Below are positions 1 through 26,416 of a DNA stretch of 26,881 nt, in pieces; position 1 is the first letter of the stretch, and each line of letters starts with the position of its first letter. The notes beneath the pieces are model-generated. The model worked only from the letters and a program-made list of their open reading frames with translations. It was not told the DNA's origin and made no database searches. A program made the translations under genes and the position numbers. Source of the stretch: a virus; IMG/VR virus record IMGVR_UViG_3300011113_000691, positions 1-26,881 of that record. One strand, 5' to 3'.

Positions 1-32
1 ATCAGAAAACCTCCGAGGTTTTCTGATTTTTT
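1..32 (+). terminator. Rho-independent terminator of an upstream gene
   Basis: A perfect 12-bp stem (1-12 with 16-27) closes a 3-base CCG loop and is followed by six T residues. It should end a plus-strand transcript that enters from outside the window. Confidence 0.85.
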
Positions 33-195
33 ATCCTCCATTTCATTCCGGATAGTAGTCTGGACGGGACGCCTCCTGGACGGGATGGCGCAGGTATCGA
101 GAGGACCGGGCGTTTCCCCCAAACTAATTTAATTTCTTATCGGTCCTACACTCAGAACCGAGCGAGACGTAACCCCTTATATCCCAAGGGTTTAC

Positions 196-223
196 TTGAC
201 TTGTCCCTTCTATGGGGTATATT
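196..223 (+). promoter_or_regulatory. Early-type promoter TTGACT-N16-TATATT
   Basis: TTGACT at 196-201 and TATATT at 218-223, 16 bases apart as in the other early promoters of this window. The expected start is about 230, just before the long hairpin at 242-304. Whether it drives an ORF or a structured RNA is unclear. Confidence 0.55.
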
Positions 224-235
224 ATGGTACTGTTC

Positions 236-634
236 ATGCGTCCGATAGCCCTCCCTGCCCCTGTGCGCGTTATTATCAGACTTGTCGGGGCAGGGAGTTA
301 TCGGATGTTTATGGCCTCCCGGGTTATCGGTGCTATACTTATCACCCTCGGGGTTATCGGTCTAGCCGGCGCTATGGTTATTCGCCCTATTCAAGAAAAT
401 AAAATTTCTCTAAGGACGGGACAGAACCTGGACGGGACCCAGAGCTCTTCGTCTTCCCAGATCTATGGCTACTATCAAGGGCCATTCAGGCCCTTGAAGA
501 CCGGTAGCTACACGTACCTGGACGGGATTCAGAGCTCTGGGACGGTATTTCCCATTTTTAAACAAAATTGTCCAAATGCTGGACGGTACGAAGACCTGGA
601 TGGCTTTCTGGTCCCTTCAAACCCTCAAAAATAA
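236..634 (+). CDS. Doubtful ORF, possible small membrane protein
   Basis: The frame is open for 132 codons from ATG 236, six bases after the expected start of the promoter at 196-223; ATG 212 lies inside the promoter spacer. Residues about 29-48 form one hydrophobic segment (VIGAILITLGVIGLAGAMVI). The second half carries the repeated LDG(T/I)QSS, which is simply the translated DNA repeat. No Shine-Dalgarno sequence and no recognised family. The same bases form strong hairpins (242-304 and 468-508), so this could equally be a structured RNA that happens to be open in one frame. I recognise no function. Confidence 0.3.
   Translation: MRPIALPAPVRVIIRLVGAGSYRMFMASRVIGAILITLGVIGLAGAMVIRPIQENKISLRTGQNLDGTQSSSSSQIYGYYQGPFRPLKTGSYTYLDGIQSSGTVFPIFKQNCPNAGRYEDLDGFLVPSNPQK
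242..304 (+). other. Long imperfect stem-loop
   Basis: CTCCCTGCCCC (251-261) pairs perfectly with GGGGCAGGGAG (287-297). The outer CCGATA (242-247) pairs with TATCGG (299-304) across a small internal loop. This gives 17 bp around a 25-base loop. It lies 12 bases after the predicted start at 230. A second nested hairpin lies at 468-508 (CAAGGGCC/GGCCCTTG inside GCTAC/GTAGC). The two suggest a structured transcript. Confidence 0.5.
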
Positions 635-1005
635 TTAAAATTCTGGACGGCATATAGAATCCGTACCTGCAGTGTCGGACAGTGTACACAAATTGTCCAA
701 ATTAAAGAATAATTTGTCGTAATATACGATTTAAGGGCTCTTATAGAGGGGTACCTGGATAGGTTTTTGTAAAAACCCTTAAAGATCTCTCAAAATTTAA
801 TAAAATTTGTGTTATTAATCTCTGTATAAGGCTATTAGAGGCTTTAGATGCCTCGGATGCCTCTGGAGCGGTTGGAGTGGCTGAAAGGGCTTGGCGGGGG
901 GTTTAAAGACTATTAAAGGGGTTTTAGAGGGATGGGGTCTAACTCAAACTTTCTAAAATATTCTTCAAATTTCTTTACCCCTCTTCCGCCTATACAGACC
1001 CCTCT
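635..1005. other. Gene-free stretch, G-run rich
   Basis: No open frame on either strand has a credible start, a Shine-Dalgarno sequence or a recognisable product. The segment 860-940 is rich in GG and GGGG runs (for example GGCGGGGGG near 895), unlike the A+T-rich remainder of the window. No terminator, tRNA or strong promoter was recognised. Confidence 0.4.
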
Positions 1006-1422
1006 TTACCCCTCTTTAGAATCATCCTCTACTGGCTCAATATTCTCCATATCAGCCTTATCAATAACATACGCTGATATGGTCTTTTTCTTTTCTATAT
1101 GGTGGGCTTTCTTTATTCGATTTAACCCGTCTGTAATGGAAATAGTACCGTCTTCTTGCCTTACCCCCAATACTGGTACGCTGGTATCAGCCTTTTCCAT
1201 TCTTTCTCTATGATCTTTATTATCCATATCATATTGCTTATCCCACCATTCTAAAGCATCAGTTTGGGATATGGGCAAATCTTTTACAAAAAATTCTTTC
1301 TTTGATTTGGCAAAATTGTAGATATCCTTGACTCGGTACTTCTTCCCAGTCTCGTCATTTGTGGCGATCTGTTGATCCCAATTTTCTACGGCTTCTGTTA
1401 AAAATTTTTTGAAACTTTTCAT
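1006..1422 (-). CDS. ParB-like domain protein with capsid-targeting leader
   Basis: 138 aa. The N-terminus MKSFKKFLTE|AVEN matches the T4 internal-protein leader type (MKTYQEFIAE|A in T4 IPIII), with an LTE prohead-protease site after residue 10. Residues about 81-121 (SVPVLGVRQEDGTISITDGLNRI, then SAYVID) resemble the start of the ParB/sulfiredoxin fold, in which DGLHR is the typical motif; here it is DGLNR at 98-102. I infer a protein packaged in the head and trimmed, with a nucleotide- or DNA-related role. It is the last gene of the 2251-to-1006 operon, starting 6 bases after the stop of the gene before it. The leader is a clear pattern match; the ParB call is moderate. Confidence 0.75.
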   Translation of the reverse strand: MKSFKKFLTEAVENWDQQIATNDETGKKYRVKDIYNFAKSKKEFFVKDLPISQTDALEWWDKQYDMDNKDHRERMEKADTSVPVLGVRQEDGTISITDGLNRIKKAHHIEKKKTISAYVIDKADMENIEPVEDDSKEG

Positions 1423-1428
1423 AAAATT

Positions 1429-1791
1429 TTAGTCGAAGTGGTAATCGACATCCTTGAGTTTGTATCCTCTGTCTGTTAGCCCCTTTACAGTCTTGTGGGC
1501 TGCTTCCCGAATATTCTCATCTGAACCGATTGGGAAGTGTTCTTCCTTGCCCTCTGAATTTATCATTTTTACTGTTGCCTTAAACTTTTTAGTATGAGGC
1601 ATGTCTAGATAGACATCATAATTTTCATGAATTTCTTCTTCGGCTTCTTTTTTTATTTCTTTCATCGGCTTTTCAATTCTTTGTTCAGTTTGCCGATCTT
1701 TTCTTTCTTTCTTTTCTAAAAATTCGGGACTTAAGGTTGTTTCCTCTGCCCCCAATTTTTGCTCTTTGATGTAATTTTTAAAACTTTTCAT
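1429..1791 (-). CDS. Small charged virion-type protein with capsid-targeting leader
   Basis: 120 aa. The leader MKSFKNYIKE|QKLG ends in IKE, a likely prohead-protease site. Residues about 17-60 are extremely rich in Lys and Glu and predicted helical or coiled coil (EKKERKDRQTEQRIEK). The C-terminal half looks like a small alpha/beta domain (YDVYLDMP, FKATVKMINSEGKEE, and a final helix with LTDRGYKLKDVDYHFD). It starts one base after the stop of the upstream gene (TAA-T-ATG), so translation is probably coupled. No family recognised; the leader suggests an internal head protein. Confidence 0.75.
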   Translation of the reverse strand: MKSFKNYIKEQKLGAEETTLSPEFLEKKERKDRQTEQRIEKPMKEIKKEAEEEIHENYDVYLDMPHTKKFKATVKMINSEGKEEHFPIGSDENIREAAHKTVKGLTDRGYKLKDVDYHFD

Positions 1792-1792
1792 A

Positions 1793-2251
1793 TTAGTATT
1801 GGGCGGAGCCTACGTGCTTTTGATAAGTTGTTGCAAATATGTCGGGAGCCACAACTCCATAATCACCTTCTCCATGTCGAACAATCATATCACCTGGATT
1901 ATACGAAAGTTCACCCCAAGAAGTTTTTAAAACTCCGGAGTGATCTGCTGGTCGAACTTGTTTTAATATTTTTTTAGGTGTTGCAATTCCCTTTTCATCT
2001 ACATCATAAAGAGCTTCAAATCTATCGGGAGCAATTGGATATCTTTCACCTTTTGGCCCAGTTACTATGCTGTGCCCCGCTTCATATTTTACCGGGCCTT
2101 CCAGAGTTTCAATGGTTCCCGCATCTTTTGCAATTTCATATTGAATTGGTTTTGGTGGTTTGAATGCAGTAAAAGTAGTGTCGTGTTCAAACCAATCATC
2201 TGTAATACCGGTTTGAGGTTGTTCCATTAAAAATTGTTTAAACTTTTTCAT
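1793..2251 (-). CDS. Capsid-targeted protein with two internal PGD-type repeats
   Basis: 152 aa. Start ATG 2251 is fixed by a late promoter 5 bases upstream and by the leader MKKFKQFLME|QPQ with an LME site; the open frame runs much further upstream but only antisense to the 2354 gene. Two repeats of about 32 residues are visible: 51-83 (GPVKYEAGHSIVTGPKGERYPIAPDRFEALYD) and 112-143 (WGELSYNPGDMIVRHGEGDYGVVAPDIFATTY). Both have the form PGD-x-I(V)-x6-Y-x-V-x2-D-x-F-x2-(T/L)Y, seen in various phage and bacterial proteins of unknown role. First gene of a three-gene operon. Internal head protein is the inference. Confidence 0.8.
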   Translation of the reverse strand: MKKFKQFLMEQPQTGITDDWFEHDTTFTAFKPPKPIQYEIAKDAGTIETLEGPVKYEAGHSIVTGPKGERYPIAPDRFEALYDVDEKGIATPKKILKQVRPADHSGVLKTSWGELSYNPGDMIVRHGEGDYGVVAPDIFATTYQKHVGSAQY

Positions 2252-2256
2252 GTAAC

Positions 2257-2264
2257 TATTTATG
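2257..2264 (-). promoter_or_regulatory. Late promoter CATAAATA
   Basis: On the minus strand CATAAATA is followed by 5 bases and the ATG at 2251. It matches the T4 late consensus TATAAATA in 7 of 8 positions. Confidence 0.75.
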
Positions 2265-2284
2265 CCCTTTTTGTTCCCAAGTCG

Positions 2285-2312
2285 TTGACTGGGAGTGCCT
2301 AGGTGATATAGT
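2285..2312 (+). promoter_or_regulatory. Early promoter TTGACT-N16-TATAGT
   Basis: TTGACT at 2285-2290 and TATAGT at 2307-2312. The expected start is near 2319, leaving a leader of about 35 bases that carries a Shine-Dalgarno sequence, in contrast with the leaderless promoters downstream. Confidence 0.75.
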
Positions 2313-2353
2313 ATGAGCCTAACAGCAATCACCCCCTCCATAGGAGTATGCAA

Positions 2354-2986
2354 GTGAAAAGTTTGGCCATCAAAGTAAAATCCTACCCCCGTCACAAGCC
2401 CATACTCACCAAGAAAATCAAAATTGAGATTGATTCTGAACTTGCTTCGGGTCCTAAAAATGTGAGTGTGACGGCAATTGTCTATACCAAAAAAGAAATC
2501 CCAAACCGCCTGATTAACAGCGCACCCGATGGTGCGAGTGCATTCTTTTTGGATAATGCGGCAGAAGAAAACAACCCAAAGCAGTTTGGTCTCAAGTTTT
2601 TTTACTATCGTGCGACGGAAGCCTATTGCGCTTGGAAGCGTCAACAGTTGGCGGCAGAAGTTGGCCTTGCTCCTCCCGTTGGTAAAATGATTGTCTTGAT
2701 GCATGGTAATCGAATTCTTCACTACGGCTATCAAACTGCTGTTGCCAATACTGACTTTAAACAGTCAGATATCAGTCCAAAACTGGTTAACGAGTTGAGC
2801 AAAAATCTTGAAAAAATTAATATTCCTGAAGACTATTGTGTTGACTGCTGTTGTACTTACGATGATGACGGCAATCCTGTTTACGATAGTGTTCTTGGAG
2901 AAGATCTTCATCAGAATAACTATGCCATTTGGCGAGGCAATCTAGTTTGCATTGATTTCGGCATTGATTCGGTGTCTTCTTCTTGA
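2354..2986 (+). CDS. Protein kinase-like (APH-fold-like) protein
   Basis: 210 aa from GTG 2354. ATG 2348 is also in frame but lies one base from the AGGAG at 2342-2346, whereas GTG 2354 is 7 bases away, so GTG is preferred. The C-terminus holds the catalytic signature of the kinase/aminoglycoside phosphotransferase fold: D184-L-H-Q-N-N189, the correct D-to-N spacing, then a short strand and I-D201-F-G203. Upstream, a segment with EAYCAWKRQQLAAEVGLAPPVG fits the helix-C region of small phage kinase-like proteins (GLAPPV is common there). The protein stops eight residues after DFG, so the usual activation segment and C-lobe are missing. It may be a minimal kinase or a substrate-binding mimic. 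First gene of the plus-strand early block. Confidence 0.6.
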   Translation: MKSLAIKVKSYPRHKPILTKKIKIEIDSELASGPKNVSVTAIVYTKKEIPNRLINSAPDGASAFFLDNAAEENNPKQFGLKFFYYRATEAYCAWKRQQLAAEVGLAPPVGKMIVLMHGNRILHYGYQTAVANTDFKQSDISPKLVNELSKNLEKINIPEDYCVDCCCTYDDDGNPVYDSVLGEDLHQNNYAIWRGNLVCIDFGIDSVSSS

Positions 2987-3010
2987 CTAACCTTTAACAC
3001 GGAGTATAAT
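2983..3010 (+). promoter_or_regulatory. Early promoter TTGACT-N16-TATAAT-N6-ATG
   Basis: TTGACT 2983-2988, TATAAT 3005-3010, start codon at 3017. The -35 overlaps the stop codon of the kinase-like gene. The expected transcription start coincides with the A of the ATG, so the message should be leaderless. Confidence 0.85.
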
Positions 3011-17016: not shown

Positions 17017-17634
17017 ATGCATAACATTAATATTCCTCATTTTTATTGCTATTTAAGAAAAGAACACATGTATCAGCATCAAGATCATGTTGGTGAATTT
17101 GACAAAGTTTTGGTATTTGGCGCTCAATCTTGTGCTGGATATGCCATGACTTTTCATGTCATGACTGATTACGGCATTGTACGCAGCCGCGTACCAGTTC
17201 ATATGCTTTGCTGGAAGTCAGACGCCCCATTAATGCCATTAGATCATCTTCAGTTATGGGATTGCTTCCATGAAAATGTATCCATGGTAGAGTATGATGC
17301 TCTTTTTGATTGCAGGGCAAAAGTTGTCCTAAAAGATCATTCTGAACATTGGGGTGATTATGTGATGACCTTTGATTGGTACAGAAATGCCTATTCGGAG
17401 GAACCCACCCAATACAAGTGTCTACACATGATTGCATTGGACAATGGAAACTATACACTTCAGCCAAATAATAGAATTTTTTGGAAAAATATGTCTTTTG
17501 TTACCAAGCCATTCCCCGAGAAGCCTGACTTTAAAGTTGACAACAAGGCTTGGAAGTGCGAAGGAGAAAGTGATCGGTGGATAATCGACGGGCATGACGA
17601 CAATTATTACTATGATATAAAGTCAACTAAATAA
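17017..17634 (+). CDS. Conserved phage protein, unknown function
   Basis: 205 aa from ATG 17017; an ATG at 16990 in the same frame lies in the T-arm of the preceding RNA fold and is not favoured. The pattern IPHFYCYLRKEHMY-x-HQ-x-GEF-x-VFG, HMLCWKSDAP, HLQLWDCF and HKCLHMIALDNGNYTLQPNNRI, as read here, is one I recognise from hypothetical proteins of many phages; the LQLWDCF and ALDNGNxxxQPNNRI blocks are the most constant. No catalytic motif is apparent. No Shine-Dalgarno sequence precedes the start, so it may be translated after RNA processing. Confidence 0.75.
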   Translation: MHNINIPHFYCYLRKEHMYQHQDHVGEFDKVLVFGAQSCAGYAMTFHVMTDYGIVRSRVPVHMLCWKSDAPLMPLDHLQLWDCFHENVSMVEYDALFDCRAKVVLKDHSEHWGDYVMTFDWYRNAYSEEPTQYKCLHMIALDNGNYTLQPNNRIFWKNMSFVTKPFPEKPDFKVDNKAWKCEGESDRWIIDGHDDNYYYDIKSTK

Positions 17635-17639
17635 AAATG

Positions 17640-17931
17640 GTATTGTTGATATTGGATTGAAATGCGACAACACAGGGGTTCAATTCCCCTCGGCTCCATT
17701 AGCCTAACCGAAGGATTCTGCAATTCCTTAGAGATGGCGAGTCAAGTCCCCGTAGCAGCGGGGCAAACCCCGAAGTCCTAGGCTTCGGGAATCTAGGGGC
17801 TGAAATGGCTTCGATTGGCGCAAAGTAATGAAGAAGGAGATACCCGTTACTGGCAACGAGGAACGTGAAACAACAGTTGCAAATTTAATTGCCAACGAAA
17901 TGGCAATGGCTGCTTAAAGCAGTGGGGTTCA
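17640..17931 (+). ncRNA. ssrA: Circularly permuted (two-piece) tmRNA
   Basis: The acceptor piece comes first: T-arm AGGGG-TTCAATT-CCCCT (17674-17690), acceptor strand CGGCTCC (17691-17697), discriminator A 17698, no encoded CCA. After a 97-base intervening segment (17699-17795) with two strong hairpins, the coding piece starts GGGGCTG (17796-17802), which pairs with CGGCTCC, then shows the tmRNA signature GGCTTCGA. TTGGCGCA (17815-17822) pairs with TGCGACAA (17663-17670) as helix P2 with one mismatch. The tag frame from GCA 17879 encodes ANLIANEMAMAA and a TAA (17915-17917), located in the loop of a small hairpin. It rescues stalled ribosomes and tags products for proteolysis. Outer ends are approximate. 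Confidence 0.88.
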
Positions 17932-17964
17932 CCCGGTTTCCCGCATCTGAAAACCGGGCTTTTT
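17932..17964 (+). terminator. Rho-independent terminator of the tmRNA
   Basis: CCCGGTTT (17932-17939) pairs with AAACCGGG (17951-17958) around an 11-base loop and is followed by CTTTTT. The next early promoter starts 3 bases later. Confidence 0.88.
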
Positions 17965-17966
17965 AT

Positions 17967-17994
17967 TTGACTATTAACATTATGGATATATACT
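17967..17994 (+). promoter_or_regulatory. Early promoter TTGACT-N16-TATACT-N6-ATG
   Basis: TTGACT 17967-17972, TATACT 17989-17994, ATG 18001. Same exact geometry as the other four leaderless early promoters. Confidence 0.87.
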
Positions 17995-18000
17995 CTAGTC

Positions 18001-18174
18001 ATGCCTAACTCAAAGCAACGCATTATTAATCGTAAGCATAAAAAGCGTAAGGGGCTCATTGCTCGCAAACGCGCTACTAGCCTCATGGAGGCAAAAGTTG
18101 GTACACTTCGTTCGCTTGACGCGATTGGCCAACTTCCTATCTCTGTCAAGCAAGCAAGGTTACCAAATGGCTAA
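18001..18174 (+). CDS. 57-aa basic peptide
   Basis: MPNSKQRIINRKHKKRKGLIARKRATSLMEAKVG contains 13 Lys or Arg among its first 27 residues, followed by a neutral tail (LRSLDAIGQLPISVKQARLPNG). It resembles short basic nucleic-acid-binding peptides, some of them ribosomal-protein-like in appearance, but no family is recognised. Start set by the leaderless promoter; the stop overlaps the next ATG by 8 bases. Confidence 0.65.
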   Translation: MPNSKQRIINRKHKKRKGLIARKRATSLMEAKVGTLRSLDAIGQLPISVKQARLPNG

Positions 18175-20659: not shown

Positions 20660-20667
20660 TATTTATT
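20660..20667 (-). promoter_or_regulatory. Late promoter AATAAATA
   Basis: Minus-strand AATAAATA, 6 bases before ATG 20653. It overlaps the last codons of the gene upstream. Confidence 0.65.
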
Positions 20668-21061
20668 GTTCTGTCTGTCTCAACTTTCGATCAATGCGGG
20701 GATCAGTATTAACTTCTGAGTAGTTAAATTCTGGTAACTTTTGAATATTAAATTCAAGAAATACCGTAAAAGATTTGAGGTAAGAATACAACCTTGGCTC
20801 GACCTTATAAAATAAGATACGAGCCGCATTTTCTTCTCCAAATACATTTTTTAAAATTATTATATGATTTAAAATTAACCGTTCTCTTATAGATTTTAAA
20901 GTTTTATGTTTATGAACTTTTTGGAGTAATCTTTTAACGTATTTTACACGTTTTAAATCATCCATAAATTCATTACGACCAGTGCATTCACTATTAAAAT
21001 AACACAACTGGCAAAACTCTAAAAAAGTATCCTCGGTTAAAGGCTTACTTTTATCAAGCAT
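20663..21061 (-). CDS. Conserved T4-like phage protein, unknown function
   Basis: 132 aa from ATG 21061, 7 bases after the preceding stop. GTG 21091 or 21085 in the same frame would add 8-10 residues and overlap the previous gene; both are possible. The sequence LDKSKPLTEDTFLEFC, then EFMDDLKRVKYVKRLLQKV, LKSIRERLILNHIIILKNVFG and YSYLKSFTVFLEF, follows a family common in T4-like and marine myoviruses (DDLKR-x-KYLKRL, ERLILNHIIVLYNVFG), function unknown. Helical, no enzymatic motif. Part of the late block. Confidence 0.75.
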   Translation of the reverse strand: MLDKSKPLTEDTFLEFCQLCYFNSECTGRNEFMDDLKRVKYVKRLLQKVHKHKTLKSIRERLILNHIIILKNVFGEENAARILFYKVEPRLYSYLKSFTVFLEFNIQKLPEFNYSEVNTDPRIDRKLRQTEQ

Positions 21062-21068
21062 CAAAAAA

Positions 21069-21620
21069 TTAATGTTGGCATCCACAGTCACTCTCGCCCG
21101 TATTATACGAAGATGTTTCAGTCGGGGTGATTACAAGAGTTACACGGCGAAGGTGATTCGGTTGTTTCTCAACATTCATTGTCAAGGCTAAAGAATAGCC
21201 TAATTTTTCTTTGATTCCATCTCCCTGCTTAAAGCCCTTTTTATTTACATCATCATATGGATTTTGACCATAAACACCTAATTGTGGGCTACCATATTGA
21301 ACCAATTCATATGTGCTCATACCATCTGAAACTTTTTGTGCTGGGCACATAAAATCTAGACCAAAATGATTTAGTTTTTGTTTTACGACTCCCAAAAGAC
21401 TATCTGGATCGATATAATCTTTAGAAGAAAAAGTATGAAGCATAGCGTTAATTGCATCAATTTGTCTGGGTAAAGCTAAATTAAATGTTCCCTTATCAGT
21501 TAAAGTGGAGGAACCCAATTTTCCCTGGGGATCACCAATATAAAGGCCACCGCCTTCGGTATGTTCCCCAGCATTTTCAGCAATTACGTCGATATTTTTA
21601 AGGAGTGTTTTAAATTTCAT
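21069..21620 (-). CDS. Virion-type protein with capsid-targeting leader and Cys/His tail
   Basis: 183 aa. MKFKTLLKNIDVIAE|NAGEH carries an IAE site at residues 13-15, as in T4 IPIII (FIAE|A). The body is Gly/Asp-rich with mixed strands; the last residues, GESDCGCQH, contain two Cys and one His that could bind a metal. No family recognised. ATG 21620 has AAGGAAC 4-5 bases upstream. A TAAATAAT sequence upstream of the ribosome site could be a weak late promoter, so this gene may be read from both its own and the upstream promoter. Confidence 0.72.
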   Translation of the reverse strand: MKFKTLLKNIDVIAENAGEHTEGGGLYIGDPQGKLGSSTLTDKGTFNLALPRQIDAINAMLHTFSSKDYIDPDSLLGVVKQKLNHFGLDFMCPAQKVSDGMSTYELVQYGSPQLGVYGQNPYDDVNKKGFKQGDGIKEKLGYSLALTMNVEKQPNHLRRVTLVITPTETSSYNTGESDCGCQH

Positions 21621-21631
21621 GTTGTTCCTTA

Positions 21632-22780
21632 TTATTTAGTTCTATTTTTAATCAACCCATATAAATCGCTGTTATAAACAGACTCATTTAAAGTTTTAAT
21701 TGAATTGTTAGTTATATCTTCGGCAATCTTTTTCCACTTTCCGCCTTTGCTCTTATAGCATTTTGCAGCCCAAGCATTGGCATACGCCGAAGGATAAACA
21801 TCAAATTTTGCTTTTGCTTGAGAAATACAAGAAGACCATTTGCTTGGATTTTTTGGTTTATTTTTCTTTTCTTCAAAAAGATTAACATCTTCTTTTAACA
21901 TTGCGCTAACTGGTTTAGCACTCCAAGTTCTACAGGCCCAATAGCGAGCCTTCCATTTTGGTCCAGGATTATCACAGTTATGACGAGCTCGGAAATTTCT
22001 TCTGCGATCTGGATCATCGCGCTTAATTTCCATATTAGGATCACCGAAGTTTACCTTAACTACATTTCCCCTATCATTTCGAACATAAACTTTGTACTTT
22101 TTAACATCACCGCGCATAATTTTGTTTAGTTTAACTTTTTTCTTGTCATCTTCATAAATGTCGATCATATCCCCATATTCATTTGTTTCATCGCCTTCTG
22201 TAACATCAACAAAACCCATAGTAACATCGGGTGCAAAATTTTCAGTGATAATATCACCATCTTCTGTAGTAAATGTTACAGTATGTACATTTTCACTAAT
22301 TTCAACCATATCAACATTTAAAATTTGTCCGGATTCATTAATTACTAGATCGCATGGAAGTAAATCTTTTGCTTCAATAGTAGAGAAGGGAAGAGCGTGT
22401 ACAACATTTAAATTTTCAACAATAAAATATTCAAATGTTTCTTTTACTTCAGTTACACCTGTTTCAACGTATACTGGTTTCTTTCCTTTTCCTTCTACAG
22501 CTCCCTTTTTACCTCTGCCGGCTTTTCTTTGAGCAGCGCGTTTACGTCTTACAAAGCTAGCAATTTTTTCTTTGCCAAGTTTTTTAGCTTTTTGTTTGCT
22601 CAAACAGGCAGCATAAGCATCACCCTCATCTGCATCACCGCATTTACCAACACGTTCACCTTTTGTATTATAACGATCCCACCCGGGGCCACCTCCAGCA
22701 GATTCTTTATTAAACCACTTACCTAAACCAGATTTGGCATATACTTTTTCTAGTAAAATTTCAAGATCGTTATATTTCAT
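21632..22780 (-). CDS. Three-module Cys-rich virion-type protein
   Basis: 382 aa. ATG 22780 overlaps the preceding stop as ATGA, which is preferred over a TTG two codons upstream. Module 1, about 18-95 (KWFNKESAGGGPGWDRYNTKGERVGKCGD, AYAACLS, FVRRKRAAQRKAGR), module 2, about 228-290 (KYKVYVRND, VKVNFGDPNMEIKRD, FRARHNCDNPG, ARYWACRTWS), and module 3, about 310-350 (KNPSKWSSCISQAKAKFDVYPSAYANAWA), are each patterns I know from separate phage proteins. An LLE site lies at 9-11, and further (L/I)xE sites occur. The middle section, 120-200, is acidic and beta-rich. Possibly an internal core protein cut into pieces. Confidence 0.75.
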   Translation of the reverse strand: MKYNDLEILLEKVYAKSGLGKWFNKESAGGGPGWDRYNTKGERVGKCGDADEGDAYAACLSKQKAKKLGKEKIASFVRRKRAAQRKAGRGKKGAVEGKGKKPVYVETGVTEVKETFEYFIVENLNVVHALPFSTIEAKDLLPCDLVINESGQILNVDMVEISENVHTVTFTTEDGDIITENFAPDVTMGFVDVTEGDETNEYGDMIDIYEDDKKKVKLNKIMRGDVKKYKVYVRNDRGNVVKVNFGDPNMEIKRDDPDRRRNFRARHNCDNPGPKWKARYWACRTWSAKPVSAMLKEDVNLFEEKKNKPKNPSKWSSCISQAKAKFDVYPSAYANAWAAKCYKSKGGKWKKIAEDITNNSIKTLNESVYNSDLYGLIKNRTK

Positions 22781-25152
22781 GACCAATCCTTGTTTTGTTT
22801 TTCACCTTTTTTATGTCCGTTATCTGAACGGTTATCGGAACGATCACGGACACGTAAATTATTTATGCCTTTGGAGCCACCATGTCTGAGAGGCTTTTTA
22901 TGATCGATGTCTTTTCCATCGCCTTTTTTAACTCTTCCTTTTTTGATCATCATTTCTCTGGCTTTAGTTCTTGCAGCTCTTTCTTTTCTTTGCTTTGGTT
23001 TTCCGTGATAATTTCTATATTCTTGCTTATAATTTCTTTTATATTCTTCAATAACCAAATCATCAAAAACCATTTGAATTAATTCTGGATATTTGAGCAT
23101 TCTATTTTTTGCATTTTCAAATATAGATTTAAGATTAATCATTAATGGTTCAGCATCTTCGGTAAGTAAATTTTGTTGAGAAATTAATACTCCAACTTCA
23201 CCATCAGTAATTAATTCGTTTCTTAATAAAGTTGCAAGAACAAAATCATTCGTTAAACCTTCTATTAAAAGATCGTTTAAAATAATCACACATTCACCTA
23301 AGACAGCATTAGTAACGTTCTCGCCTTTCATTACTGGAATCTTTGTAGTTTTATTTCCAATAGTTACATAATTATACTGAACTGCATTTAAATCTTTTGT
23401 ATTAAATCCAGGAAGAAGGCTAGCATTTAATAAGAAATCATTGGTCTTAAGTAAATGATTTACTACAATCTCCATTGGATTAATTTTATCTTTTTGAACA
23501 AGCATTTGTTCAATAGAAGGTTTTTTAGGTTCTACTGCTTCAATAACTGTGGCAAAGCTTTTAAGCATTGAGGCTGCTGATGGTTTATAATTTGTAATAT
23601 TAGAAGATGAGATTACATCTTTTGATGGAACAACATCAAGATTTGAATCTTTTGCAACTGTTGCAAAATATTCATCTGTTAGAGGAAAAATACCATTAAT
23701 TGTTATTAAGTGATTCGGGGCCATGGCTGGATCTGTAATTCCATCACCGCGCAATACAGTTTTAAGTAAACTGTCAATAACTGCACTTTTTATAACACTC
23801 TTAGTTGTTCCACCCTTTAACATATCTTTAGCTTGTGATTGCCAAGCTTTTTGATAATTTTGAAAAGATGCAGCTGGATTTAGTTGACCGTTTTCATCTA
23901 TTACTGTACCCATTTCCGAGCCATCTGGACCAGTAATTTTAGTTTTTTGAAGTTTAGCTAAAAGTTTAGGATTTTTTTGAATTTCACCCATCAATTCTTC
24001 TGGAACTAAGGTATTACTAAAAGTTCCTTGGATTTCATCCATAGTTTGTATAGTTTGGTTCATTTTTTTATCTTGAGCCATTAACTGTGGATTCATTAAG
24101 GTTTGTGTTAATGCACGCGCAACAAAACCTCTAAAGTTTTTATTTGACTGATCAAATTGATTTGTTGAAAGGGAAATTTCACCACTGGCTGCAACTTTAA
24201 ACTTATAGTTGCCACATTGTAAATCTGGATTACCTTCCGAACTTACAGGTTGATTTCCTGATTCTACATTTGTTAGCAATGTCTGAAGACATTGATCACC
24301 AATTTGTGAGAGAATTTTTCTTGCAGTAAAGAATGCGGAACGAGTAAAGTCTTTTGCATCTGGTGCAAGAGCCAAGTAAGTTTGAAGTTCTTGATCGCTA
24401 GCTCCTGCTTTCAATTTAGCCAAGAATACCAAAGCATTTAAGACCTGTTGGTTATAAGGAGAATTGCTTAAATTACTCAAACCAAATTCAACACTTAAAT
24501 TTTCATAAGAAAGTTTATCAAAATTATTATTGGTTGGTGGCTTGCGTGTCATTTGGAAATATTGAGCACGCAACTCTGGTGGCATAGAAGCCAATTGTTC
24601 TGGAGTCATTTGGGCCATAGTCTCAAACATTTGAGCCTGACTCATTTTTTTGGCTTTTGTTTTTTCTTTCTTTACCTTTTCTTCTTCACTTTTTGGTCTT
24701 GCTTCTTCTCTGCGCTCTTTTTCTTCACCAGTTTCAGCTTTTTTACCACGCTCTTTGGCTTCTTTTTGCTTCACATCACCCAATAAAAGTTTAGAAGCTC
24801 TAGTTTGTTCAAATTTATCTTCTGTGGTTGCTCTCTTAGCTTCATCCATACTCAACACATCTTTGTTTAGCTTTGTATGTTGAGAAGCATTAAATGAATC
24901 TTTAAAAATTAACTGTATAGAACCACCACGGGTTTTAACCAATAGAATGTCTTTTAAAAGTTCTTGTTTTGGTTTGCGCTCTCTTGGTGTTTCGCGGGCA
25001 CGCTCTGCACGTTTACGTGCTGCATCCCTAGCCTTTGCATCAGCTGTAGCCGATTTAGCTCTTTCTTTTTTTTCTGCGGCTCCAACTTGTTCTGGGGCCT
25101 CATTTAAAATTTTCACATCAAAAATATGGTTTAAAAGGGTTTTAAAGTTCAT
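22777..25152 (-). CDS. Large internal-head-type protein with C-terminal HNH-like domain
   Basis: 791 aa from ATG 25152; a TTG two codons upstream lies too close to the promoter. The leader FKTLLNHIFDVKILNE|APEQ ends in LNE. Residues 20-170 are a highly charged Lys/Glu/Arg/Ala-rich helix, followed by a long globular region without known domains. The C-terminus (about 690-791) is a HNH-like nuclease domain: RAARTKAREMMIKKG, then D-I-D750-H751-K-K-P-L and N764-N765-LRV with NRSDN. The usual order in such phage domains is DxDH, N-NLRV, NRS. A DNA-acting enzyme delivered with the genome is an inference. The end overlaps the next gene by 4 bases. Confidence 0.8.
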   Translation of the reverse strand: MNFKTLLNHIFDVKILNEAPEQVGAAEKKERAKSATADAKARDAARKRAERARETPRERKPKQELLKDILLVKTRGGSIQLIFKDSFNASQHTKLNKDVLSMDEAKRATTEDKFEQTRASKLLLGDVKQKEAKERGKKAETGEEKERREEARPKSEEEKVKKEKTKAKKMSQAQMFETMAQMTPEQLASMPPELRAQYFQMTRKPPTNNNFDKLSYENLSVEFGLSNLSNSPYNQQVLNALVFLAKLKAGASDQELQTYLALAPDAKDFTRSAFFTARKILSQIGDQCLQTLLTNVESGNQPVSSEGNPDLQCGNYKFKVAASGEISLSTNQFDQSNKNFRGFVARALTQTLMNPQLMAQDKKMNQTIQTMDEIQGTFSNTLVPEELMGEIQKNPKLLAKLQKTKITGPDGSEMGTVIDENGQLNPAASFQNYQKAWQSQAKDMLKGGTTKSVIKSAVIDSLLKTVLRGDGITDPAMAPNHLITINGIFPLTDEYFATVAKDSNLDVVPSKDVISSSNITNYKPSAASMLKSFATVIEAVEPKKPSIEQMLVQKDKINPMEIVVNHLLKTNDFLLNASLLPGFNTKDLNAVQYNYVTIGNKTTKIPVMKGENVTNAVLGECVIILNDLLIEGLTNDFVLATLLRNELITDGEVGVLISQQNLLTEDAEPLMINLKSIFENAKNRMLKYPELIQMVFDDLVIEEYKRNYKQEYRNYHGKPKQRKERAARTKAREMMIKKGRVKKGDGKDIDHKKPLRHGGSKGINNLRVRDRSDNRSDNGHKKGEKQNKDWS

Positions 25153-25158
25153 CTCCAA

Positions 25159-25761
25159 TTATTTAGGCTCTGGAGATTCCCCATATTTTTCTAGTGGATT
25201 GTATAACTTTAAATTTTTATGTGTTTTTGCCACACCCCGTGCAAGCTTTTTTACAGCATCATAATCTAAATTATTAAGTTTTGAAAATTGTTTTAGATTA
25301 CTTACGGTAAATATTTCACCAGTATTAATATCTTGAAATGTTGCCGTTTTTACTGGAATAATTTTTTTAGGTTTTGGTTCTTCAAGATTTTCATGTGAAC
25401 CTACACCTTCTTTAACAGCTCGGATTTCTACCGCTGTCCAGCCTTTATAAGTCTTTCGCTTACCATTTAATAGTTCACAAATTTTTACTGGTGTTAGGCC
25501 GTGTTTCTCACCAAACTCTGTCATGCTTTCAAAAAATACTTTTTCTTCAGTACCCACACGTTTTAACCAGTAACCATTATGTTCTTTTACAGGATTAGTC
25601 CAAACCCAATAACGACCCTCTTGTGTAAAAAAACCACCATGTTCCTGAACAAATCTAGCACGATGTTTGGATGCTTTTGAATTATCATTCATCATGGTCC
25701 ATAATTTTGTACCACGATTATTTACTTCATTCCAAACAGTTTTTTCTTCACGATAAGCCAT
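25159..25761 (-). CDS. NUMOD1-like repeat protein without nuclease domain
   Basis: 200 aa. Two segments of about 38-40 residues look like NUMOD1 helix-turn-helix repeats, found in the DNA-binding part of HNH and GIY-YIG homing endonucleases: 73-110 (EKVFFESMTEFGEKHGLTPVKICELLNGKRKTYKGW) and 148-188 (GEIFTVSNLKQFSKLNNLDYDAVKKLARGVAKTHKNLKLY). The first half (SKHRARFVQEHGGFFTQEGRYWVWTNPVKE) contains no recognisable HNH or GIY-YIG residues. It may be a homing-endonuclease relic or a repurposed DNA-binding protein. It overlaps the upstream exonuclease gene by 14 bases. Confidence 0.65.
   Translation of the reverse strand: MAYREEKTVWNEVNNRGTKLWTMMNDNSKASKHRARFVQEHGGFFTQEGRYWVWTNPVKEHNGYWLKRVGTEEKVFFESMTEFGEKHGLTPVKICELLNGKRKTYKGWTAVEIRAVKEGVGSHENLEEPKPKKIIPVKTATFQDINTGEIFTVSNLKQFSKLNNLDYDAVKKLARGVAKTHKNLKLYNPLEKYGESPEPK
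25160..25167 (-). promoter_or_regulatory. Possible late promoter CCTAAATA
   Basis: Minus-strand CCTAAATA, 7 bases before ATG 25152. It overlaps the last codons of the NUMOD-repeat gene (PK-stop), so a coding coincidence is possible. Confidence 0.45.
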
Positions 25762-26416
25762 TTGTTTTTCTATAATCTGTTATTAAATGCTTCAAATGTT
25801 TAACGTATTTAATTGGCCTATCTTGAAAAACTTGCTTTATACCATCCTCACAAGCAATTAAAATAGCAAAATTATCAACAATTATTCCTGTTCTTTCTTG
25901 AAACATTAATGCATATGCACATGCCTGTGCAAAATAATTATCGATGTCTGATTCTCTTTTTTCTTTTGTGCTGGCTTTAAAGTCTATAATAGAGAGTTTA
26001 CCATCATATTCAGCAATACAATCTGTTCTACCAGCAAGACCAAGAGTTTTAGACCATAAAGGTGTTTCAAGAGCAACTATGTTGTCAATTTTATCTAGTT
26101 CAGGTTTTAACAATGAAAATAATGCTTTATTATTTGAATGGAGATTGTCAAAGTCTATATTTTCATTTTTAAGATATTGCTCAATTAAACTATGAAACTT
26201 TGTTCCCCGAGATGTTACTCTTTTGCTTTCCTCTGGATTTTTTTCTCTCCATTTAGCAAAAAAATGTTGTTTGCGAAAACCAACAACAGTCGTTACTGAT
26301 GGAAAAATTCCATCTGGAGTTTCATATAATCGTTTACCTTCAGAACTTACTTCTTTTAAAGTTCCTTCCAGTAAAATTTGTTTATGTGTAAAACTTTTAT
26401 TTGATACTAATGACAT
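25748..26416 (-). CDS. PD-(D/E)XK exonuclease, MGME1/Cas4/RecB-like
   Basis: 222 aa. The motifs of this nuclease group are all visible: VTSRGTKFHSLIEQYL with H75, the GLAGRTDCIAEYDGKLSIIDFKAS block with D132, D145 and K147, and the trailing Q164-x3-Y168 motif in YFAQACAYALMF. Such enzymes degrade single- or double-stranded DNA from an end, using Mg2+; T4-like marine phages commonly carry one among their late or recombination genes. The start ATG 26416 has no Shine-Dalgarno sequence. An ATAAATA-type element lies about 45 bases upstream (26461-26467). Confidence 0.85.
   Translation of the reverse strand: MSLVSNKSFTHKQILLEGTLKEVSSEGKRLYETPDGIFPSVTTVVGFRKQHFFAKWREKNPEESKRVTSRGTKFHSLIEQYLKNENIDFDNLHSNNKALFSLLKPELDKIDNIVALETPLWSKTLGLAGRTDCIAEYDGKLSIIDFKASTKEKRESDIDNYFAQACAYALMFQERTGIIVDNFAILIACEDGIKQVFQDRPIKYVKHLKHLITDYRKTNGLS

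Follow-up and report, generated by a model that had tools for sequence, protein, structure and literature searches.

We analysed a 26,881-base virus record, IMGVR_UViG_3300011113_000691 (the window), which is probably a fragment of a larger genome, and found in it a gene for a 791 amino acid (aa) protein that joins an N-terminal leader to a C-terminal HNH domain. We propose that a T4-like phage makes this product as an internal, non-structural protein of its head. The leader would take it, once made, into the prohead core; a gp21-like (S77) prohead protease would clip it after E18 (LNE/A), leaving about 773 residues as the mature protein in the head. At infection this protein would exit the head with the DNA, and its HNH domain, as a metal-dependent deoxyribonuclease (DNase), would cut DNA in the infected cell, the likeliest target being host or competing DNA. 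By analogy to characterised HNH enzymes, H751 would be the general base and D750 and N774 the metal ligands, and the conserved body may be a carrier, DNA-binding or regulatory part. Among the explanations considered here this one is probably right in outline; that all its steps are correct is less likely.

The interval 22777-25152 holds a single open reading frame (ORF), located on the minus strand, and the plus strand across it is stop-rich. An in-frame TTG two codons upstream of the ATG at 25152 is an alternative start and would give 793 aa. The earlier note on this DNA had reported an ORF of 791 residues here, which we confirmed with the strand corrected to minus. A single-sequence search revealed one full-length relative (48% identity), and a two-sequence alignment used as query gave 94 relatives in IMG/VR, of which 80 were kept. 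At least 94 IMG/VR stretches carry relatives, with 45-77% identity to the window protein over essentially full length. Besides the window protein, 64 distinct relatives were extracted, and 43 of them together with the window protein composed a non-redundant alignment of 44 sequences. The HNH domain is better conserved than any other part of the protein: over the last ~90 residues the commonest residue has a mean frequency of 0.85, and elsewhere of 0.42-0.72. Because the full-length relatives retain the leader site and the HNH residues, these sequence features of the ORF are not chance, and a chance motif was rejected as their explanation.

The HNH motifs are KDIDHKKPL (D748, D750, H751), NNLRV (N765) and SDNRSDN (N774, N778), at the positions where a C-terminal HNH-like motif had been claimed before. 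Pfam HNH matched residues 745-768, exactly at the motif, with an E-value of 0.0022, which is below the curated cut-off (18.5 vs 21.4 bits), and PHROG 4590, a family of unknown function, matched residues 703-788 (E 1.7e-21) and all 44 members. Nine residues (D748, D750, H751, N765, N774, R775, D777, N778 and H780) were unchanged in 44/44 orthologues. Across 62 fused and standalone copies of the domain, the invariant set was D748, H751, N774 and two Arg, and the invariance of the first three is the pattern expected of a working HNH site. The domain is under purifying selection, with nonsynonymous divergence (dN) of about 0.09-0.15 and synonymous divergence (dS) of 1.1 to the closest relative and saturated for the others.

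A domain-only model, built from 62 sequences with a predicted local distance difference test score (pLDDT) of 76, contained helices at 9-17 and 20-38, strands at 48-52 and 67-71 and a helix at 72-77, and it showed the beta-beta-alpha arrangement. When the domain was compared with PDB by Foldseek, HNH proteins filled most of the 49 rows, including colicin E9/E7, pyocins, the Gme HNH nickase 4h9d, Cascade-HNH, McrA and the NmeCas9 HNH domain; a second structure aligner ranked 4h9d first (Z 4.5, 64 residues, 5.0 A). The matches in BFVD were "HNHc domain" phage proteins with 38-50% identity. The similarity to HNH folds and the conservation of the metal-binding His, both proposed for checking in the earlier note, were thus found, H751 being invariant in the relatives. 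The domain has in common with HNH nucleases of known structure (colicin E9/E7, 4h9d, Cascade-HNH) the beta-beta-alpha metal core with the Asp-His, middle Asn and last His/Asn positions, but it shows no significant sequence similarity to them, and their architectures and biology are different. The C-terminal ~88 residues almost certainly adopt the HNH fold, and from its conserved residues the domain is very probably an active nuclease.

The fold might also have been retained as a non-cutting DNA-binding module that organises DNA in the head. The domain is strongly basic and some standalone relatives are without the second Asp of the motif (DVNH, DVAH, DVHH), which would suit such a role, but all 44 long proteins keep the five catalytic-type residues, and the set kept in all 62 copies includes D748, H751 and N774. 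We consider a non-cutting module very unlikely.

The evidence for packaging in the head begins with the N-terminus, where the protein carries the leader MNFKTLLNHIFDVKILNE followed by APEQ. A site of the form (I/L/V/M)xE was present within residues 6-26 in 64/64 members, against 26% of equal-length random windows from the same proteins, so the leader noticed earlier is present and its site is kept across the family. The site ends at residue 8, 11, 12 or 18, usually with Ala next (LTEA, LFEA, LQEA, LNEA and others), and the model placed a helix at 3-17 and then disorder. In T4, internal proteins enter the prohead core by means of a ~10-residue leader and are trimmed at the N-terminus by gp21; gp21 itself was reported to lose nine residues (PMC9958956).

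In the contigs of the two longest relatives, G001 (136 kb) and G002 (126 kb), genes were found for Gp23 (E about 1e-134) and for Peptidase_S77 (E 3e-39 and 1e-41); the window is a 26.9-kb fragment without them. The S77 proteases of G001 and G002 start with MKLITEITE/D and MKLITELTE/D, having an (I/L)xE site at residue 9, which agrees with the nine residues removed from T4 gp21. Since the two longest relatives are T4-like in these two genes, the leader fits targeting to the prohead core and cleavage after E18, as far as can be read from sequence. The protein resembles T4 internal head proteins in its leader, which ends in an (I/L)xE site (here the long variant), in being an apparently non-structural cargo, and in belonging to phages that also encode a T4-like capsid protein and an S77 prohead protease (seen in the two longest relatives). 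The differences are that no sequence relation was found, and that ours is a mature protein of ~770 residues with an HNH domain, for which packaging is predicted. Among the T4 proteins, the small internal proteins inhibit restriction and Alt is an ADP-ribosyltransferase.

Leader-like starts were also found on other proteins. The strict T4-type leader (MKSFKxFLxE) occurred in 13 ORFs of G001, G002 and the window, where shuffles gave 0.17 expected. Two small proteins of the window (1006-1422 and 1429-1791, minus strand) have textbook T4-type leaders (MKSFKKFLTEA and MKSFKNYIKEQ), indicating that further proteins of this phage are probably packaged as well. The leader profile weakly recognised the start of an otherwise unrelated neighbour of 183-185 aa (E 0.0057 in G001 and 0.026 in the window). 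A second recurring start, roughly M.YLTNYYKNLSEQLQ...LLE, was common to otherwise different proteins of the relatives' genomes (L109-L123), for example at 132046-132973 in G001 and 101349-102389 in G002, and is perhaps another packaging signal.

The gene is located in a conserved cluster. Seven genes were found in the same order in 62/80 loci: a PD-(D/E)XK exonuclease, a NUMOD-like protein, the HNH-bearing gene, a 384-aa protein, a 183-aa protein, DUF7207 and a 517-aa protein; the first three were together in 80/80 loci. This arrangement bears on the possibility that the product is a core protein whose HNH domain is used while the head is assembled or filled with DNA, to trim, resolve or cut that DNA, and not in the next host. 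HNH proteins assist terminases in many phages, the same HNH family is found elsewhere between the small and large terminase genes, and the leader would place the protein in the prohead, the site of packaging. Against this, the fixed neighbours are the exonuclease and the NUMOD-like gene instead of terminase, and T4-like phages are, to our knowledge, established to package with gp17 without an HNH partner. A role in assembly or packaging is rather unlikely. A terminase-associated HNH packaging protein was rejected as a candidate, as the gene does not adjoin terminase and its neighbours are fixed in all 80 loci.

Virion evidence came from one cyanophage. Relatives of DUF7207 were present in cyanophages, Methylophilales phage Melnitz and Sinorhizobium phage phiM12, and leader-like starts were found around the DUF7207 gene in Melnitz and P-RSM4. 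In cyanophage S-CREM2, gp159 is the DUF7207 counterpart (E 1.7e-21) and gp160 is a weak relative of the 384-aa neighbour (E 2e-6). Virion mass spectrometry of S-CREM2 detected gp160 and gp154-156, and several proteins of the gp6/gp12-gp15 group were also detected in purified virions (PMC10665884). Three S-CREM2 proteins matched the strict leader, namely gp6 (S-adenosylmethionine hydrolase), gp14 (kinase) and gp154 (cytidylyltransferase), and each of them is in the virion list (Fisher p 0.013).

A parallel case in S-CREM2 is gp12, an 869-aa protein annotated as Cas9/Csn1-like, which was found in virions with 28 peptides (PMC10665884). It is likewise a large protein of a T4-like cyanophage, with a leader-like LRFASFMAE/A and, by eye, a DH...N...N motif. 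The leader-like stretch begins 17 residues in, the HNH-like motif is internal and without Pfam match, and profile search revealed no homology between the two proteins, so gp12 is an analogous case rather than a demonstrated homologue. S-CREM2 gp12 (L211:4205-6814) matches PHROG 3561, whose function is unknown.

Packaging, which had been suggested as putative, is supported indirectly by the conservation of the leader, the T4-type protease and capsid protein of the relatives, the synteny with a cluster of virion proteins and the leader-bearing virion proteins of S-CREM2. From these sequences and analogies we predict with good confidence that the protein is packaged in the head; if packaged, it is reasonably likely to act on DNA in the new host.

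The same domain was also found free-standing, as phage proteins of 70-115 aa. At least 546 stretches were confirmed, some of which are the long protein itself; 80 were kept, and one of these is the long protein. A first search of INPHARED with the HNH domain alone gave no match, probably through low-complexity masking of the Lys-rich sequence, and with a family-consensus query, trimmed at the ends, and a looser E-value limit 27 INPHARED records were matched. The named phages include ICP2 (gp12), Pelagibacter phage HTVC025P (gp27, annotated as HNH endonuclease) and P-RSP2. These PHROG 4590-type proteins (ICP2 gp12, HTVC025P gp27) have the same domain with the same core residues, about 42-68% identical to the family consensus, but lack leader and body and lie near terminase, head-tail, helicase or primase genes; many are between the small and large terminase genes, and others upstream of helicase or primase genes. 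Judged from these copies, the long protein looks like an old fusion of an HNH module to another protein.

Another reading is that the domain comes from a mobile or homing endonuclease, a selfish passenger that became joined to a structural gene. The standalone copies are abundant in varied contexts, next to terminase, helicase and primase genes, and the gene upstream has a NUMOD-like domain typical of homing endonucleases. However, no relative without the HNH domain was found among the long proteins (shortened matches such as L070 stop at a sequence edge), the domain is the best conserved part, and its distances correlate with those of the body (Mantel r 0.44, p 0.001; control module r 0.47). 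As it is never absent and diverges along with the body, the domain does not look like a passing mobile element. The sporadic presence, or mobility independent of the host gene, of homing endonucleases was not seen; a homing element was rejected and a selfish passenger is highly improbable.

The whole-protein model, from 44 sequences, had a mean pLDDT of 72 and a predicted template modelling score of 0.45. Charged helices were located at 25-35, 39-53 and, within the C-terminal domain, 719-738. Of the long charged helix described in the earlier note, the charge stood, residues ~129-171 being rich in Lys and Glu, but the stretch is disordered in the AlphaFold model, with pLDDT about 30. A family search with the conserved N-terminal module (residues 40-128) gave no match. 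In a structure search of PDB, no credible fold for the body came from the whole model; the model is large, so novelty of the fold does not follow. Among the predicted structures of BFVD, Foldseek matched the protein to one of cyanophage S-RIM50 that is 276 aa long and uncharacterised (E 3.4e-7, probability 1.0), and also to an S-IOM18 protein. We assigned the S-RIM50 match to gp064 (276 aa), two genes upstream of the cytidyltransferase gp062, linking accession and locus by length and phage. By hhalign, body residues 236-510 were colinear with residues 8-259 of the gp064 family (E 2e-4), and ten column-shuffled control runs gave E 0.04-0.66. The body, searched by sequence profile against Melnitz, phiM12, P-RSM4, S-CREM2, S-IOM18 and S-RIM50, gave no match. 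On this profile and model evidence, the core of the body is remotely related to the S-RIM50 gp064 family.

This family (PHROG 22045; gp064 at L220:44672-45502, relatives L222-L245) has its gene in the corresponding region, upstream of the cytidyltransferase, but gp064 is 276 aa long and without leader or HNH domain. Its invariant motif PEPKTDV...CS(V/M)K is, by eye, reminiscent of a PD-(D/E)XK nuclease site, and a Pfam search of the family gave no support for it. Considering that these motif positions seem not retained in the family of the window protein, we might speculate that the HNH domain replaced an older activity of the body.

Several points weigh against an injected nuclease. With its longer form (MNFxxLL...(L/I)xE), the leader falls outside the strict T4-type pattern. 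The E-values of the PDB structure search are individually weak (best 0.52), and the judgement rests on the consistency of the list. The association between strict leader and virion list in S-CREM2 comes from a count of three proteins, and the S-CREM2 authors considered that detected virion proteins might be co-purified contaminants (PMC10665884). The full-length protein had no match in 50,697 INPHARED phage records, and the family is known from uncultured-phage sequence alone. Finally, cleavage, packaging, ejection, nuclease activity and target are all steps that we infer, and ejection and target are conjectural.

Table 1. Features of the HNH-bearing gene, its product and the neighbouring genes in the window.
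Feature	Position	Strand	Basis
Whole gene, 791-aa protein	22777..25152	-	ATG at 25152, stop 22777-22779; full-length relatives
Leader, residues 1-18 (MNFKTLLNHIFDVKILNE), predicted to be cut after E18 by a gp21-like prohead protease	25099..25152	-	
Conserved N-terminal module, residues 40-128 (DAARKRAER..IQLIFKDSFN..FEQTRASKLL), without known family	24769..25035	-	conservation
Charged disordered linker, residues 129-171	24640..24768	-	pLDDT about 30
Body core, residues 236-510, remote relative of cyanophage S-RIM50 gp064 (phrog_22045)	23623..24447	-	
HNH nuclease domain (predicted), residues 704-791	22780..23043	-	
First catalytic motif D748-I-D750-H751	22900..22911	-	invariant
N765, middle Asn of the HNH motif	22858..22860	-	invariant
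N774, last metal-ligand position of the HNH motif	22831..22833	-	invariant, fused and standalone members
PD-(D/E)XK exonuclease family (phrog_298)	25748..26416	-	in 80/80 loci
Upstream neighbour, 200-aa NUMOD-like DNA-binding protein without recognised nuclease domain	25159..25761	-	in 80/80 loci
Downstream neighbour, 384 aa, weakly related to virion-detected S-CREM2 gp160	21632..22786	-	
Downstream neighbour, 183 aa, start resembling the leader (MKFKTLLKNIDVIAEN)	21069..21620	-	leader profile
DUF7207 (phrog_407) neighbour, S-CREM2 gp159 counterpart	20663..21091	-	
Last gene of the conserved cluster, 517 aa	19100..20653	-	

The NUMOD-like protein is encoded directly upstream of the HNH-bearing gene and is a possible functional partner. 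Elsewhere in the window we found six transfer RNA genes, and ARAGORN predicted a transfer-messenger RNA-like gene at 17609-18008 on the plus strand with the tag ANEMAMAA, an unusual phage cargo if real. In G002 (IMGVR_UViG_3300007735_000800) the ORFs of 1-3000 and 120000-126277 are of a make-up unlike the rest, and this contig may be a chimeric assembly. Bacterial genomes gave a single match, an 8-kb contig in a Chitinophagaceae metagenome-assembled genome, which is too weak for host assignment. PDB sequence searches, NCBIfam and PADLOC gave nothing meaningful for the protein.

Both packaged internal proteins and HNH nucleases are familiar; no description of a conserved, widespread T4-like phage protein that combines them was found in the literature searched, which covers few subscription papers. 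Polyvalent virion-packaged proteins (PMC5512222) unite several effector domains; the window protein has one recognisable effector domain, next to a body to which no function is assigned. We tentatively suggest, with more doubt than for the single protein, that an abundant lineage of uncultured T4-like phages packs a large preformed DNA nuclease into its heads and injects it, this nuclease having arisen when a small free-standing HNH domain was added to an old internal-protein core. Known T4-type head cargo mostly inhibits host defence or modifies host proteins.

If this is true, an injected nuclease may be an ancient feature of the cluster, because the cyanophage relative of the core carries a nuclease-like motif of its own, and DNA targeting might come from the conserved NUMOD-like neighbour. 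If packaged, a DNase would be active ahead of any phage gene expression and must spare the phage's own DNA, which raises the question of self-protection. Across metagenomic viral data the family is widespread, and it is missing from the phage records searched, indicating that current annotation overlooks it, and the leader rule would allow candidate injected proteins in T4-like genomes to be listed from sequence only.

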